64,000 nt of DNA from Luteimonas wenzhouensis (GTDB taxonomy: Bacteria > Pseudomonadota > Gammaproteobacteria > Xanthomonadales > Xanthomonadaceae): assembly GCF_007859305.1 (NCBI RefSeq), contig NZ_VOHE01000001.1, forward strand, positions 1-64,000, written 5' to 3'. A model generated the notes under the pieces. The model made no database searches, had not been told where the DNA came from, and saw only the letters and a program-made list of their open reading frames with translations. Position numbers and translations under genes: made by a program. Shown one piece after another: positions 1 through 6,452 of this stretch (positions are counted from its first letter, which is position 1; each line of letters begins with the position of its first letter).

Positions 1-55
1 CGCCCTGCTTGAGCACGGCAATGATCTGGGTCTCGGTGAACTTCGACTTCTTCAT
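1..55 (-). mobile_element. IS3-family transposase OrfA, N-terminal fragment
   Basis: The minus strand reads a start codon at 55 followed by 18 residues beginning MKKSKFTETQII, the usual start of the small helix-turn-helix protein (OrfA) of IS3-family elements, which binds the IS ends. It runs off the left edge, so whether the element is complete cannot be told. Upstream of the start (56-140) is probably the non-coding IS end, but no terminal repeat could be proven. A fragment of the partner transposase lies at 241-350 in the opposite orientation, so at least two IS copies or a rearrangement are involved. Confidence 0.75.
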
Positions 56-240
56 ACAACCTCCTGGCGGGGAAAAGATGCCAGAAAGTTCTACTTATTG
101 GGTGTCTACCGACCGGGGAAGCTTACGCAGTCACCGATCACGCGGCTGGCGTGTTGCGGGAAAGGAGACGGAGGCAACTAAGACAGATTAACCACCTTCG
201 TCCCTGTTGCTCTGGATTAATCACCTCCGTCCACTTTAGC

Positions 241-350
241 TCGATTACATCGAGACCTTCTACAACCGGACACGCATGCACTCGGCTCTAGGCTACCAAT
301 CGCCGGCAAAGTACGAAGAGCGGCTCAATCGCCTGGGGTATGTGCCCTAG
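241..350 (+). pseudogene. IS3-family transposase OrfB, C-terminal remnant
   Basis: An open stretch ending in TAG at 348-350 encodes DYIETFYNRTRMHSALGYQS and a further PAKYEERLN-type tail. This is the conserved C-terminal end of the DDE transposase (OrfB) of IS3 elements. The frame is closed by a stop at 237-239, so only about 36 codons remain and the catalytic DDE residues are gone. The 30 bases after the stop (351-392) look like an IS right end, but this is not proven. Two similar 17-18 base stretches at 186-203 and 214-232 lie just upstream and may be junction scars. It marks the left border of the accessory module that follows. Confidence 0.75.
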
Positions 351-392: not shown

Positions 393-1055
393 TTAGCCAT
401 TTTCTTTCTTTTCCCTGAATTTTGCTTCTACAGCGCTGTTCACGACCTCGTTCTTCACGCGCTCCATGAGATCAAGAACTTGAGACTGTATAGACTCGTA
501 CGCCTCGCGATCAATATCTACATCTTCGCCATGGCAGATAGCATTTCTCTTTGCCAGCAATGCCTCATCGAGGAAAATACTGGCCGTCTCAAATGATGAC
601 ACATCAATTCCTGCGCAAGCGACTAATCCAATAAACCGATTCGCATTCAGATTAGATTCCGCGTCGATTAGCTTATCTGCCTTCAAGTCGACAGGCCTAC
701 TAAGCGATTCTTCGTAATCAACCAGTAGACGCACGCGATTCAATGAGCTCGGCGATAGTTCCAGCTGCCTCAGCTTGGATATAACCCCTCCCACGCGCAT
801 CGCTGGCGTGATCTCACGCAGCGTCAATCTCTGCATATGCACGTAACTAACATAGAGGCGCAGCGTCGCGACCACAAAACCTTCCCAATGTGCGTAGAGA
901 AGCGCTACTGAAGCTCTCAAGTAAGTGGCACGGGCGCTCGATGCACTCCTGTCAATAGCAGTCTTGAGATAGGAAAGTTCCTTTTTTCTCCAACCCAACT
1001 CGCCGTCTACAAGCTCTGCAAGTTGCGATAAGGTTCTGACTTTTGGCGTCGCCAT
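393..1055 (-). CDS. HEPN-domain protein, MAE_28990/MAE_18760 family (putative RNase)
   Basis: 220-residue, mostly helical protein. The N-terminal half has the 'SWRKKEL...LLYAHWEGFV' pattern (here around residues 20-60) that I associate with the MAE_28990/MAE_18760 HEPN family. Near the C-terminus, R170-N-A-I-C-H175 fits the HEPN R-x4-6-H motif that forms the metal-independent RNase site in active HEPN dimers. No signal peptide or membrane helix is seen. It starts 5 bases after the stop of the DUF262 gene at 1061, so the two are almost surely one operon and act together. The coding DNA is visibly richer in A/T than the flanking genes, a sign of transfer. Likely role: RNA-cleaving toxin or effector of a defence pair. 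The family call is fairly firm; the activity is inferred from the motif. Confidence 0.8.
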   Translation of the reverse strand: MATPKVRTLSQLAELVDGELGWRKKELSYLKTAIDRSASSARATYLRASVALLYAHWEGFVVATLRLYVSYVHMQRLTLREITPAMRVGGVISKLRQLELSPSSLNRVRLLVDYEESLSRPVDLKADKLIDAESNLNANRFIGLVACAGIDVSSFETASIFLDEALLAKRNAICHGEDVDIDREAYESIQSQVLDLMERVKNEVVNSAVEAKFREKKENG

Positions 1056-1060
1056 AGCGC

Positions 1061-2158
1061 CTACTTAAAGTGCGCCCGCGCAAACGGAACGATCTTAACG
1101 ATGCGAGTGGTGCCGCGTACGCCTGCGCCGGTGTTCTTCTTGAACGCATCATCGGACCACATGTCGGCAACCTTGGCCACAAGCGTGCCGGGCTTCTTCG
1201 CGATAGCAGCTAGGTTAGCCCGTACGCCTATAGCAAGAGCCTCAAATGCCGCATCCGAGAACGATCCAACTATACGCCCAGAGGACTCCCTTCTGAAAGC
1301 CTTCTGCCCGAGTGCCTTGTTGATTAAATTGAAAACATCCTTGAACTTTTTCTCCTCCGCCACGCGATCAAACTTTTTGTCAAGAGCTAGACTTACCACC
1401 CCTTCGTCCAAGTAATCATGCAGGTCCCACTCGGCCTTGTACTCGACCAAATTGAAGACCAAGTACTTGATCACCAGCTCAACTCCCCGCTGACGCTCCT
1501 TAGCGCTGGGAGTCAACTTCGTGCAGTCCAGAAAATCTTTGTTCGAACTTAGCTTCTCCAGCCAAGTCTGGAAGCTCTCATCTGCCATGATCACTGAGCA
1601 AGTTCTGATCTCTTGCCTAGTGAGCAACGAGCCTCCGGTGTTGAGTCGCTGGAACAGCTCGAATCGGCTACGTGGGCTGCTACCTGTTTGGAGTATTTCC
1701 ACCCGAATCCGGGCACGCTGCAATCGCAGCTTCAGCGGCTCCGGTAGAGCACCGGTTCCCTCCCAGGCAGCGCCTTCAAGCGCAGGCATAAGAGCTGTAC
1801 CGGAAAGTTTAGACGCTACCTGCCTCTTTCCGGACTTTCCACGAAGAACCCCTCTAAACTCGAGCAGAGTAGAAACTCGCTGAAGACCATCCACCAGCTC
1901 CCACTTGCCATCTGACGACTGGAAAACAAATATTGGCGGTATAGGAATGCCGATCAGAATGGATTCAATGAACTTGCTTTTCTGATCGAGTGACCACCGG
2001 AAGAGACGTTGATATCGAGGTGATATTTGAATCTCACCTTTTTCATAGATGCTAATTAGCTCGCCGATTGACATCTCATATCCGTCGGCTCGCACTTCCG
2101 CTTGCGCCGCCGACAACTGAGCCTCTAGCTCACCCTTCTTCGCCTTCTTCTGTGCCAC
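1061..2158 (-). CDS. DUF262-domain protein (GmrS/ParB-like N-domain), partner of HEPN
   Basis: 365-residue protein. The DUF262 core is at the N-terminus: ISPRYQRLFRW at residues 45-55 and DGLQRVSTLL at 90-99, the family's DGQQR-type motif with Q changed to L, a common variant in stand-alone DUF262 proteins. DUF262 is the N-domain of the modification-dependent endonuclease GmrSD/BrxU, where this motif is linked to nucleotide use. No DUF1524 HNH nuclease domain follows, so the nuclease is probably supplied by the HEPN partner. I chose the GTG at 2158 because GAGGAG lies at 2165-2170 with good spacing; the frame is open to a GTG at 2197 that overlaps the icmF stop. The gene is AT-rich for this genome and begins right at the end of icmF. 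Confidence 0.8.
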   Translation of the reverse strand: MAQKKAKKGELEAQLSAAQAEVRADGYEMSIGELISIYEKGEIQISPRYQRLFRWSLDQKSKFIESILIGIPIPPIFVFQSSDGKWELVDGLQRVSTLLEFRGVLRGKSGKRQVASKLSGTALMPALEGAAWEGTGALPEPLKLRLQRARIRVEILQTGSSPRSRFELFQRLNTGGSLLTRQEIRTCSVIMADESFQTWLEKLSSNKDFLDCTKLTPSAKERQRGVELVIKYLVFNLVEYKAEWDLHDYLDEGVVSLALDKKFDRVAEEKKFKDVFNLINKALGQKAFRRESSGRIVGSFSDAAFEALAIGVRANLAAIAKKPGTLVAKVADMWSDDAFKKNTGAGVRGTTRIVKIVPFARAHFK

Positions 2159-2193
2159 CGCGAACTCCTCATAAATAAACGTTCCGCGGAACT

Positions 2194-5100
2194 TCACATA
2201 TTCCGCCGATACTCCCCCCCCACCTCATACAAGGCATGACTGATCTGCCCCAATGAGTGGGTCTTGACCGCGTCCATCAGCGCCTCGAACACGTTCCCCC
2301 GGCGGCGCGCGGTGTCCTGAAGATAGCCCAGGCCGTGCCCGTCGTGGGCCTCGGTGGCGATGGTTTCAGGTGAATTGGAATCGTCGGTGGTGGGGGTGCC
2401 CCCATCCCGGCCTTCCCCCGCGGGCGGGGGAAGGAGCGAGGCAAGGCGGTTGCGGATGGACTGCCAGTTGCGGACGTTGGCGATCTGCTGGGCCTTCTCT
2501 TCCTCCGTCGAGCGGATCAGCTCGATCTCGGCGGCCACCTCGCCGCCGTGCTCCTTGGGCAGGAATGTGTTGACGCCGATCAGGGGCAGGCTGCCGTCGT
2601 GCTTCTTCTGCTCGTAGTAGAGGCTCTCTTCCTGGATCTTGCCGCGCTGGTACATGGTGTCCATGGCGCCGAGCACGCCGCCGCGCTCGCTGATGGCCTC
2701 GAACTCCTTGTAGACGGCCTCCTCCACCAGGTCGGTGAGCTGCTCGACGATGAAGCTGCCCTGCCAGGGGTTCTCGCAGTAGTTCAGCCCCAGCTCCTTG
2801 TTGATGATCATCTGGATCGCCACGGCGCGGCGCACGCTCTCTTCGGTCGGCGTGGTGATGGCCTCGTCGTAGGCGTTGGTGTGCAGGCTGTTGCAGTTGT
2901 CGAACAGGGCGTACAGGGCCTGCAGCGTGGTGCGGATGTCGTTGAACTGGATCTCCTGGGCGTGCAGGGATCGGCCGGAGGTCTGGATGTGGTACTTCAT
3001 CATCTGCGAGCGCTCGTTGGCGCCGTAGCGCTCGCGCATCGCTCTTGCCCAGATGCGGCGGGCGACGCGGCCGATGACGGTGTACTCCGGGTCCATGCCG
3101 TTGGAGAAGAAGAACGACAGGTTGGGCGCGAAGTCGTCGATCTTCATCCCGCGCGCCAGGTAGTATTCGACGATGGTGAAGCCGTTGCTTAAGGTAAAAG
3201 CGAGCTGGCTGATCGGGTTCGCCCCGGCCTCGGCGATGTGGTAGCCCGAGATCGACACCGAGTAGAAGTTGCGGACCTTGTGGTCGACGAAGTACTGCTG
3301 GATGTCGCCCATCATGCGCAGGGCGAACTCGGTGCTGAAGATGCAGGTGTTCTGGGCCTGGTCTTCTTTCAGGATGTCGGCCTGCACGGTGCCGCGCACG
3401 GTGGACAGCGTCTCGGCCTTGATTTTCGCGTAGGTCTCGGGGTCCACCAGCTGGTCGCCGGTCATGCCGAGGAAGGCCAGGCCGAGGCCGTCGTTCCCCT
3501 TGGGCAGCTCTCCGTGGTAGCGCGGGCGCTCACGGCCTTCGAAGAAGGCGTCGATCCTCGATTGCGCCTCGGCCCAGCGCTGCGGATCGGCCCGCAGGTA
3601 CTTCTCCACCTGCTGGTCGATGGCGCAGTTCATGAACATCGCGAGGATGATCGGCGCCGGGCCGTTGATGGTCATCGACACGCTGGTGGTCGGCGCGCAC
3701 AGGTCGAAGCCCGAGTAGAGCTTCTTCATGTCGTCCAGCGTGGGGATGTTGACGCCGGAGTTGCCGATCTTGCCGTAGATGTCCGGGCGCGGCGCCGGGT
3801 CCTCGCCGTAGAGGGTGACGCTGTCGAAGGCGGTGGACAGGCGCGCGGCCGGCTGGCCCAGGCTCAGGTAGTGGAAGCGGCGGTTGGTGCGCTCGGGCGT
3901 GCCCTCGCCCGCGAACATGCGGGTGGGGTCCTCGCCGGTGCGGCGGTAGGGGTACACGCCGCCGGTGTAGGGGTAGTAGCCGGGCAGGTTCTCCTTGCCG
4001 AGGAAGGCGAGCAGTTCGCCCCAGCTGCGGTACCTGGGCGCGGCGATCTTGGGGATCTTCTGGTGGCTGAGGGACTCTCGGTAGTTCTCGACCCGGATGG
4101 TCCTGCCGCGGACCTGGTACTCGTTGACCTCGTCGGTGATGGACTTCAGCCGCTGCGGCCACTCGCGCAGGTTGCGCAAATGCCCGGCTTCGATGGACTG
4201 GATGGCGTCGTTGTAGCGCTGGCGCAGGGTGAGCAGCGAGCGGTCGACGACCGCCGCCCCGTCCCCCGCGTGCGGGAGGTGAGGATGATCCGCTTGCGCG
4301 GCACTGCCGCGCGGACCGTCCGGGCGCCCGGCGCGCTGCGCGGAGCCGGACGGGTCGGGGTGGGGGGCGGCTTCGCTCGCGTCGGGCCCGCCCCCATCCC
4401 CCGCTTCGCGGGGACTTCCCCCGCTGGGCGGGGGAAGAGGGGTGCCGCCGCCGGCGAGCAGGTCGGCGGCGTCGTAGAGCTCGAGCGGCTTCGGCAGCCT
4501 GGGGTCGTCGAGCTCCTTCAGCGCCTGCCAGCAGGCCTGGGCGCGGTCGGCGGCCTCGGCCTGCTTCTCGATCGAGGCGTTGATGGCCCTGCCCTGCTCC
4601 GCGATCTCGGACAGGTAGCGGACCCGGTTGCCGGGGATCAGGACGGTGGCGCGCGGTTCGCGGACCGAGGTGTCGATGCGGGGGTTGAAGTCGCAGCGGG
4701 GGGCGGCGGGCACGGCCGCCGGGGCGGCTGCAGGAGCGGCTGTAGGAGCGGCTTCAGCCGCGACCGTCGCTCCAGGGGTTTCGTCGTTGGCCGGGGTTGG
4801 GGTCGCGGCTGAAGCCGCTCCTGCAGGGGCCACCGGGGTGCCCGGGAGGTTGAGTTTTTCGCGCAGCAGGCGGCACAGGTTCACGAACATCCAGCTGATG
4901 CCGGGGTCGTTGAACTGGCTGGCGATGGTGGGATAGACGGGAACGTCGTCGTCGGCGACGTTGAAGGCGGCGCGGTTGCGCTTCCACTGCTTGCGCACGT
5001 CGCGCAGGGCGTCCTCGGCGCCGCGCTTGTCGTACTTGTTGAGCACGATCAGCTCGGCGTAGTCGATCATGTCGATCTTCTCGAGCTGGCTGGGCGCGCC

Positions 5101-6108
5101 GTAGTCGCTGGTCATCACGTACATCGGGAAATCGACCAGGTCGACGATCTCCGAGTCGCTCTGGCCGATGCCGGCGGTCTCGACGATCACCAGGTCGTAG
5201 CCCAGGCCCTTGAGGAAGGCGATGCAGTCGGTGAGCACCGCGTTGGTGGCCACGTTCTGGCGGCGGGTGGCCATCGAGCGCATGTACACGCGGTGGCTGC
5301 GCAGCGAGTTCATGCGGATGCGGTCGCCCAGCAGCGCGCCGCCGGTGCGGCGGCGGGTCGGGTCCACCGAGACCACGGCAATGCGCATCTGCGGGAAGCA
5401 GGACAGGAAGCGGTTGAGCAGTTCGTCGGTCACCGAGCTCTTGCCGGCGCCGCCGGTGCCGGTGATGCCGATGACCGGCGTGGGACCGGCATGGCCGGCC
5501 GCGCCCGCGGCCCACCGTTTGCGCAGCATGGCCAGCTCGGCGTCGGAGTACGCGCCGTCCTCGATCGCGGAGAGCACGCGGCCGATGGCGATCTCGTCGT
5601 CCAGCGACGGGCGGGTGCCGGCCGGCTGGCGGGCCTCGGCCGCGCGCGCGTCGCGCGCCCTGGACACGCGCTCGACCACGTCCTCGATCATCTCCACCAG
5701 GCCCAGCTTCATGCCGTCGTTGGGGTGGTAGATGCGTTCGACGCCGTAGGCCTCGAGCTCGCGGATTTCCTCGGGCGTGATCGTGCCCCCGCCCCCGCCC
5801 ACCACGCGGATGTGGCCGGCGCCGCGCTCGCGCAGCATGTCCACCATGTACTTGAAGTACTCGACGTGGCCGCCCTGGTAGCTGGACAGGGCGATGGCGT
5901 CGGCGTCCTCCTGCAGGGCGGCGCGCACCACGTCCTCGACCGAGCGGTTGTGGCCGAGGTGGATGACTTCCGCGCCCTGGGCCTGGATCAGGCGGCGCAT
6001 GATGTTGATCGCCGCGTCGTGCCCGTCGAACAGGCTGGCGGCGGTGACGAAGCGCAGCGGGGTGGCGTTGGACTGGCGCGCGGGGAGCTGGTTGGCGGGC
6101 GTGGCCAT
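2194..6108 (-). CDS. icmF: Fused isobutyryl-CoA mutase IcmF
   Basis: 1304-residue adenosylcobalamin enzyme interconverting isobutyryl-CoA and n-butyryl-CoA. Order of parts: B12-binding domain (about 20-150, with D28-G-H30 as the base-off histidine motif), MeaI-type G-protein chaperone (P-loop GTGGAGKS at 217-224), linker, then the substrate-binding TIM barrel. F732 in RMFAGEG and Q919 in DQAQNT sit where methylmalonyl-CoA mutases carry Tyr and Arg; Phe/Gln is the isobutyryl-CoA signature. The ATG at 6108 is preceded by CCGGAG at suitable spacing; the frame is open for 105 codons upstream, but with no conserved sequence. Three Pro/Ala/Gly-rich stretches (about residues 426-462, 556-617, 1224-1238) are made by palindromic repeats lying in frame and match domain borders or loops. 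A run of eight G lies at 2214-2221 near the end of the gene. The family length without insertions is about 1,100. Confidence 0.95.
2214..2221 (-). repeat. Homopolymer G8 tract in icmF
   Basis: Eight consecutive C on the plus strand (G on the coding strand) in the VGGEY codons close to the icmF stop. A one-base slip here would change the last seven or so residues and extend or shift the end into the DUF262 gene start. No evidence that it does so. Confidence 0.9.
2396..2439. repeat. Palindromic repeat (cttccccc-gc...gggggaag type) inside icmF
   Basis: A copy of the intergenic palindrome found throughout the window (tccttcccccgc / gcgggggaaggccggg-atggggg), here within the icmF reading frame. 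It encodes [15 protein letters not shown] at about residues 1224-1238, just before the conserved C-terminal helix. It keeps frame, so it has become part of the protein. Confidence 0.8.
4258..4441. repeat. Cluster of palindromic repeats inside icmF
   Basis: Contains at least one full copy (4386-4441, cccccatccc...cttcccccgctgggcgggggaag) and degenerate arms (4261-4284 and about 4355-4380) of the window's intergenic repeat. All of it is translated as a Gly/Pro/Asp-rich linker of about 60 residues between the middle helical region and the mutase barrel of IcmF. Confidence 0.75.
4725..4832. repeat. REP-type palindrome pair (gtaggagcggcttcagccgcgac) inside icmF
   Basis: Two inverted copies of the gaggagcggcttcagccgcgacc-type REP element known from Xanthomonadaceae and Pseudomonas (left arm from about 4728, right arm ending near 4832), separated by about 55 bases. 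They are in the icmF frame and encode an Ala/Pro/Thr-rich linker after the G-protein domain. This is a different repeat family from the cttccccc type. Confidence 0.8.
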
Positions 6109-6452
6109 GGCGCACTCCGGAATGATTTCAGATGTGACCAATTGTAGCGCGGGGGTGTCGCGGCCTTCGGGCGGTTTCCTGCCTGCGCGGGGCGCGCAAC
6201 CGGGTCCAGCGTGCCATGCCTTTGCCACGCTTGGCGCGCCGCCCCCCGCCGACGCCAGCGTTTCCAGCGCGGAGGTTCGGGAGGGCATGGCGTGGCAGCC
6301 CCGGAACGGCGGCCAGCCTCCGCTGGACGCCCGCGGCTGCCCTTTCCAGCGGGGGGAAGGACAGTGCGTGGCGCAAATGCCACACTTGCGACCCCATCCA
6401 CCCCGCCCACCAGGCCCCGCCACGCCACGACGCCCCAGGACCCCGGCATCCG
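6109..6452. other. Divergent intergenic region icmF / PLD, with imperfect inverted repeat
   Basis: 344 bases between two divergent starts. The icmF Shine-Dalgarno (ggag on the minus strand) is at about 6114-6119. From about 6200 to 6390 there are several short stretches that recur in inverted form (ccatgcc...ccacgc against ggcatggcgtgg; tccagcgcggagg against cctccgctgga), suggesting a large imperfect hairpin or a decayed repeat element. No gene and no clear promoter were recognised. Confidence 0.4.

Follow-up and report, generated by a model that had tools for sequence, protein, structure and literature searches.

A probable DUF262-HEPN anti-phage gene pair, related to PD-T4-2, behind icmF in Luteimonas wenzhouensis

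Introduction

What is the function of two low-GC (guanine plus cytosine) genes, one encoding a DUF262 protein and the other a HEPN protein, that lie directly behind icmF in Luteimonas wenzhouensis? We addressed this question in the first 64,000 nucleotides of contig NZ_VOHE01000001.1 (assembly GCF_007859305.1; hereafter the window), which belong to a genome of 3.4 Mb. The two genes form a unit on the minus strand that adjoins the contig edge of the window (Table 1), and their neighbour icmF is presumably the gene for fused isobutyryl-CoA mutase. A first-pass annotation, made before any database search, had presented their layout as a new candidate defence system in which the DNase half of GmrSD is replaced by an RNase. 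Our analyses indicate that the two genes, DUF262 and HEPN, were probably acquired horizontally and make up an anti-phage system that is sister to PD-T4-2, an Escherichia coli system reportedly described by Vassallo et al. in 2022.

Results

Conservation of the gene pair

DUF262 and HEPN form one conserved, co-inherited unit. A scan of viral contigs was seeded on DUF262 alone, with HEPN not used for finding loci, and returned 78 loci; 57 remained once those with identical DUF262 proteins (11), truncated loci (6) and loci without a DUF262 open reading frame (ORF) of 330 amino acids (aa) (4) had been left out. A HEPN gene was found directly downstream of DUF262 (start allowed from 250 bases ahead of the DUF262 end to 400 bases past it) in 50/57 loci, so that the pairing is conserved, in support of the two-gene module described in the first-pass annotation. 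The HEPN ORF began before the end of the DUF262 ORF in 45 of these 50 pairs, and 49 of the 50 HEPNs carried R-[NDHQ]-x3-HG. Among the seven loci without a HEPN match, three had an ATPase-like gene, as in Menshen (NsnABC), which we take to be the system behind the Nsn models, and three had a small protein. The small proteins behind DUF262 at loci L282, L285 and L286 missed the HEPN profiles and kept R-N/D-x3-H, and on this motif they are possibly divergent HEPNs.

A HEPN-seeded search matched 6/369 genomes of the class, the window's own included, and DUF262 adjoined HEPN in the other five (5/5). Across 72,556 plasmid records, 6 matched HEPN and 713 matched DUF262. Nine of these records were examined, namely five of the six HEPN matches (the sixth, equal in length to another Psychrobacter record, was left out) and four of the best-ranked DUF262 matches, and HEPN lay directly behind DUF262 in all nine; DUF262 is annotated as two pieces in the Leptospira record and spans the record start in the Enterobacter record. 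The protein distances of the two partners were correlated across 61 pairs (66 minus five near copies; Mantel r = 0.873, 0/2000 permutations as high). As shared ancestry alone yields a high r, this demonstrates co-inheritance, not contact.

A single-sequence DUF262 search of genome contigs found three relatives. Around a relative on a Gracilibacteria contig, no ORF of 100 aa was found with translation table 11. A same-genus match in genome G019 (E = 7e-4) was rejected as a HEPN pair, as neither profile matched its locus (L002).

Domains, conserved residues and structure models

The DUF262 protein matched GmrSD_N (76.4 bits, cut-off 33.2) and no other Pfam family at E ≤ 1, and had no DUF1524/HNH nuclease domain, in agreement with the initial description of a DGLQR-bearing protein without a nuclease. 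Its architecture comprises a ParB/Srx-like N-domain followed by a helical domain, and residues 24-365 of the predicted structure aligned with BrxU residues 1-419 only, leaving the BrxU nuclease end uncovered. Judged by sequence, DGLQR is the counterpart of the pocket motif DGQQR: in GmrS, (I/V)DGQQR makes up the nucleoside triphosphate (NTP) pocket, and DGQQR is retained in SspE (PMC10952713). Four of its residues (D90, G91, Q93 and R94) were invariant in 61/61 aligned pairs, as were P47, Q50, R51, W55, S66, P72, P74, F169, R171, N173 and R185.

The HEPN superfamily is characterised by the motif R-x4-6-H. The window HEPN carries this motif intact, and its gene follows DUF262 after five bases (1056-1060), both as first described; E58, R170 and H175 were invariant in 61/61 aligned pairs. 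Its AlphaFold model (predicted local distance difference test score, pLDDT, 95.3) was nearly all-helical and placed the motif within a helical bundle. In Pfam, the protein matched PF18735 (93.7 bits, cut-off 28.4; 1.7e-26), the HEPN domain of PD-T4-2, as well as PF18737 (92.8 bits, cut-off 26.8; 4.5e-26). NCBIfam matched neither protein at E ≤ 1, and Foldseek gave no match below E 0.001 for either model. In sequence searches of the PDB, the DUF262 profile matched short segments of DUF262 proteins, SspE and BrxU, and the HEPN profile returned only two interferon-gamma sequences (E 0.06 and 0.11), which are chance matches. Against AbiV and other HEPN antiphage RNases (PDB 9bj5-9bj7), the fold score of the window HEPN was not above that of unrelated helical bundles.

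Relationship to known defence systems

PD-T4-2 is the closest system with an experimental test: its deletion in the native strain raised T4 plaquing, and protection was also obtained in K-12 (PMC9519451). Like the window pair it has two components, assigned to DUF262 and a PF18735 HEPN (PMC10952713). The layout is therefore already known, and the novelty first claimed for it did not hold. Among the papers searched, DUF262 and HEPN were named together in two. It had also surfaced in the survey of Anantharaman et al. 2013 (PMC3710099), where Ribo L-PSP and MAE_28990, two HEPN families, carry the entries 'operon with ParB' and 'in operon with a ParB nuclease and DNA methylase genes'; the window HEPN matches the Pfam models of both families (PF18735 and PF18737), a link that comes from a survey of sequences.

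The PADLOC model PD-T4-2_A matched the window DUF262 (1.6e-33, residues 43-364 of the 378-aa ORF), although NsnA scored higher (2e-59) and was its best PADLOC model. PD-T4-2_B did not match the window HEPN, and neither did any other PADLOC family at E ≤ 1. When 11 other HEPN partners were scanned, PD-T4-2_B matched two, both from E. coli (L027, 1.4e-8; L012, 4.4e-4), which makes it a narrow model; in 185 genomes of the class it had 0 matches. Because its HEPN fails this model, we filed the window pair as a sister variant of PD-T4-2. The window DUF262 shared 25% and 21% identity with the two E. coli copies matching PD-T4-2_B.

In a tree of 71 DUF262 proteins (five near copies dropped), the window belonged to a 55-row group in which 54 rows had a HEPN partner (support 93/89, not starred), and the two E. 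coli pairs matching both PD-T4-2 models (L012 and L027) stood apart from this group. ATPase-partnered DUF262s formed one clade of five rows (99/99) with the window outside it. The HEPN-partnered rows were not a single clade, with five changes of partner in the best tree, at least three of which were forced by starred branches.

Menshen has a homologous DUF262 protein, with an NsnB ATPase as partner there and HEPN here; membership was rejected since the gene downstream encodes a HEPN and there is no NsnB-type partner. GmrSD and BrxU share with the window protein the DUF262 domain and its DG-x-QR motif. In contrast to GmrSD, BrxU, SspE and DndI, the window has a separate HEPN gene in place of the DUF1524/HNH nuclease, and GmrSD membership was rejected on the missing nuclease domain and the restricted BrxU alignment. 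Elsewhere in the same wider family, DUF262 is followed by an ATPase-like gene at loci L003, L004, L287, L288 and L290; cyanobacterial L003 matched both NsnA and NsnB (NsnB 4e-125) and is of Menshen type.

Genomic context of related pairs

The genomic context of the pair's copies is partly defence-like. Of the nine plasmid copies examined, those of Psychrobacter and one Corynebacterium (2/9) lay beside restriction-modification genes and that of Paraburkholderia had a methyltransferase gene nearby; the other six had no restriction or methyltransferase gene annotated close by. A Terrisporobacter phage carried a copy with a methyltransferase gene next to it and an integrase gene further on, related pairs were present in two Peduoviridae phages, and in an E. 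coli prophage the pair was placed between repressor and integrase. This prophage pair was covered by at least 80% in 10/5,426 E. coli genomes. The slot behind icmF (described below) also counts towards this partly defence-like context.

Proposed mechanism and alternatives

The nuclease end is missing here, and a HEPN with an intact motif stands next door in 50/57 loci; on the simplest reading, HEPN is under the control of DUF262. DUF262 couples NTP hydrolysis to modified-DNA recognition and nuclease control in SspE, and the same is hypothesised for BrxU (PMC10952713). By analogy, the window DUF262 would bind and hydrolyse a nucleotide on meeting phage DNA, probably in modified form or as a product of replication, and would then change shape as SspE and BrxU do. 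This would release or drive HEPN, which we infer to be an RNase; by cutting RNA it would stop phage production, perhaps by stopping the cell. Of the first-pass idea that an RNase has replaced the DNase half of GmrSD, the analyses support a DUF262 protein that resembles BrxU without its nuclease end and has a HEPN as neighbour; the sensing of phage DNA or nucleotides and the cutting of RNA are presumed.

An unlikely alternative is that the pair is a toxin-antitoxin or addiction module, in which a constitutively toxic HEPN RNase is held by DUF262 to the benefit of the carrier element and phage defence is incidental. The tight or overlapping gene order of the viral pairs and the carriage of the pair on small plasmids and phages fit such a module, as does the fact that the best-ranked HEPN among the fold matches of the HEPN model, none of them under E 0.001, was the HEPN-MNT-type toxin structure 7ae6. 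However, DUF262 is longer than HEPN (365 vs 220 aa), and its retained pocket motif and BrxU-like architecture would exceed the needs of a neutraliser. Moreover, the sister system PD-T4-2 has been tested in phage defence and does not appear in the toxin-antitoxin-like list of PMC9519451.

It is improbable that DUF262 is itself the nuclease or the main effector, with HEPN as an accessory dimerisation or RNA-binding partner. GmrS was formerly taken for an endonuclease (PMC4619093), yet the window protein lacks DUF1524/HNH and its BrxU alignment stops at residue 419, R170 and H175 of HEPN are retained in every aligned pair, and the replacement of HEPN by an ATPase in the Menshen clade is expected of an exchangeable effector. 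A reading of the pair as mere cargo, carried by an element that is inserted or decaying and doing nothing for its host at present, is highly improbable despite the contig edge, the IS3 remnants, the lack of a convincing copy in 100 relatives and the failure to find a sigma-70-like promoter upstream of the pair on its strand, since both frames and the conserved motifs are intact and the slot in relatives holds open, often defence-like genes. Expression of the DUF262-HEPN pair may come partly by read-through from icmF.

The slot behind icmF in relatives

The 3' end of icmF was matched in some form in 51/52 genomes of the genus, and by more than 720 bases in 41, the window included. We compared up to 15 kb behind icmF in 40 genus relatives (loci L068-L107). 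Homology with the window ended at the icmF stop or at most 20 bases from it in the five relatives compared. A plus-strand gene of less than 59.5% GC started within 2.6 kb behind icmF in 36/40 relatives, and within 400 bases in 33 of these; in G028 and G029 it was placed behind a second icmF end. No such gene was present in G041, G037, G002 or G035, in the last of which the search did not find the icmF end. Among ORFs of 120 aa or more, the first with low GC was co-directional with icmF in 35/37 genomes having one (binomial p 1e-8). The cargo mostly differed, with a slot gene family common to another genome in 12/36 only.

One slot gene per genome was scanned with PADLOC (34 first and 2 second genes; threshold 1e-6), and 18/36 matched, including SIR2, PtuA-type proteins (three), dGTPase, retron and DRT reverse transcriptases, MzaC, Vsr and methyltransferases; the G014 match among these 18 was weak, and some of the models, such as those for methyltransferases and ATPases, are generic. 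Matches also came from three of four additional second genes (HerA, PtuB, and PDC-S35, the last accompanied by TIR hits that were weaker). Of 29 control genes lying over 9 kb from the slot in these loci, between 1 and 3 matched (p = 0.001 using the upper figure); having been picked for high GC, they represent resident genes, not other foreign genes. A common right flank resumed 1.7, 2.4 and 4.4 kb behind icmF in G003, G016 and G019 with different genes between, which points to exchange in place. No shared right-hand boundary sequence was seen by eye in five loci.

Two slots deserve separate mention. The same cassette, encoding a radical-SAM-like (by eye) and a membrane-type protein, lay directly behind icmF in two species (L070:260-2288 and L071:13166-15194); its first gene had no PADLOC match in either, and the cassette is a candidate new defence system. 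The slot of G019 (L086:13238-15166) held another DUF262-type protein of 642 aa (HEC-05 model, 3e-16) and a second gene without a PADLOC match.

The icmF end sequence

The last 28 bases of the window's icmF contain low-GC codons. This pattern occurred in 39/52 genus genomes and in 126/297 family genomes (27/54 genera), mostly once per genome, and its reverse had no match in genus or family genomes. The end sequence tracks slot occupancy, though the link is loose and has exceptions. A GC-rich version of the end, with low-GC genes missing from the first 1.2 kb behind it, was seen in G041, in G037 and at the first of the two ends in G028; a strong hairpin followed the icmF stop directly in G041 and G028, and in G041 low-GC genes were present on the opposite strand from 1.4 kb. 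G028 had a second, low-GC end 1.7 kb further with a cassette behind it, and in G029 the icmF 3' end was duplicated and the cassette lay behind the second end. Against this association, the first end of G029 and the end of G002 were of the low-GC type, yet high-GC DNA followed.

Outside the genus, the position of the end pattern was checked in 60 family genomes, a non-random set taken by icmF match score from 88 matching of 109 with same-genus and a few other genomes omitted. The end sequence correlated with downstream GC (rank correlation 0.40, p 0.0015). A preset split (at least 7 mismatches defined as GC-type) placed only two genomes in the second class, both contrary to the association. With a split by asparagine codon, picked after data inspection, downstream GC was below 60% in 25/36 AAT genomes vs 5/24 others (p 4.8e-4). 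Exceptions occurred in both directions; in G507 and G487, for instance, a GC-rich end was followed by low-GC DNA.

In the stretch behind icmF (0.1-15 kb), a second end copy (at most 7/28 mismatches) was found in only 2/40 loci (G028 and G029), so that flanking by a direct repeat is not the rule. Cargo enclosed by duplicated icmF 3' ends or by repeats of the end sequence was noted at L084 and L076 and in G549, G522, G469 and G520.

We read the icmF 3' end as a slot whose exchange mechanism we infer, and not as a proven attachment site. It is conceivable, and we propose it tentatively, that this end serves across the bacterial family as a dedicated slot for one defence cassette at a time, of which DUF262-HEPN would be one. 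Short cassettes, nearly always co-directional with icmF, would arrive just behind the stop and before the icmF terminator, be expressible from icmF, carry their own icmF end of about 28 bases and recombine in place without a cassette recombinase. Among the papers searched, none joined isobutyryl-CoA mutase with anti-phage work, those checked for icmF or for methylmalonyl-CoA mutase lacked the respective term, and the main text of a Stenotrophomonas defence-island paper (PMC11680222) contains neither 'mutase' nor 'icmF'. We call the slot unreported on the basis of this literature search only, and it may be the newer observation of the two.

Features of the locus

The pair lies between IS3 remnants and the end of icmF (stop at 2194) and is AT-richer than the rest of the window, as the first-pass annotation had noted: GC is 51-53% in the first two kb and 68-76% in each kb from 4 kb onward. 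Portions of positions 1-392 are also present on three further contigs. The DUF262 ORF as listed starts at 2197 (378 aa). We favour the GTG at 2158 as the true start because GAGGAG stands six bases upstream of it and related proteins begin at this position; 35 bases then separate the icmF stop from the GTG, both on the minus strand. Within the icmF frame, a GC-rich stretch (2389-2446) has many copies in this and related genomes, like an in-frame repeat insertion, and a stretch near 4260-4440 resembles it by eye.

Table 1 Features at the DUF262-HEPN locus, in window coordinates
Feature	Position	Strand	Remarks
DUF262 (GmrSD_N) protein, sensor-like	1061..2158	-	365 aa; GTG start; DGLQR at residues 90-94
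HEPN protein, likely RNase effector from its sequence	393..1055	-	220 aa; ATG start; R170-x4-H175
Shine-Dalgarno-like site GAGGAG, putative	2165..2170	-	assigned from sequence
icmF ORF, 3' end forming the variable slot	2194..6423	-	true start probably further in
28-base icmF end, low-GC synonymous codons	2196..2223	-	pattern match allowing 1 mismatch
IS3-type OrfA, N-terminal remnant at contig edge	~1..60	-	translation judged by eye; ends approximate
IS3-type OrfB, C-terminal remnant	~245..350	+	translation judged by eye; ends approximate

Discussion

DUF262 proteins are partnered with DNases (GmrSD, BrxU), ATPases (Menshen) and HEPNs, and the large HEPN-partnered clade to which the L. wenzhouensis pair belongs means that comparison of partners can test what DUF262 senses and how its effectors are switched. 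If the slot behind icmF is upheld, it would pose a recombination puzzle, namely how cassettes lacking an evident recombinase are swapped behind one gene. It would also offer a fixed address from which defence cassettes could be collected genome by genome, and its genes without a match to a defence model, half of those tested, would be a hunting ground for new systems.
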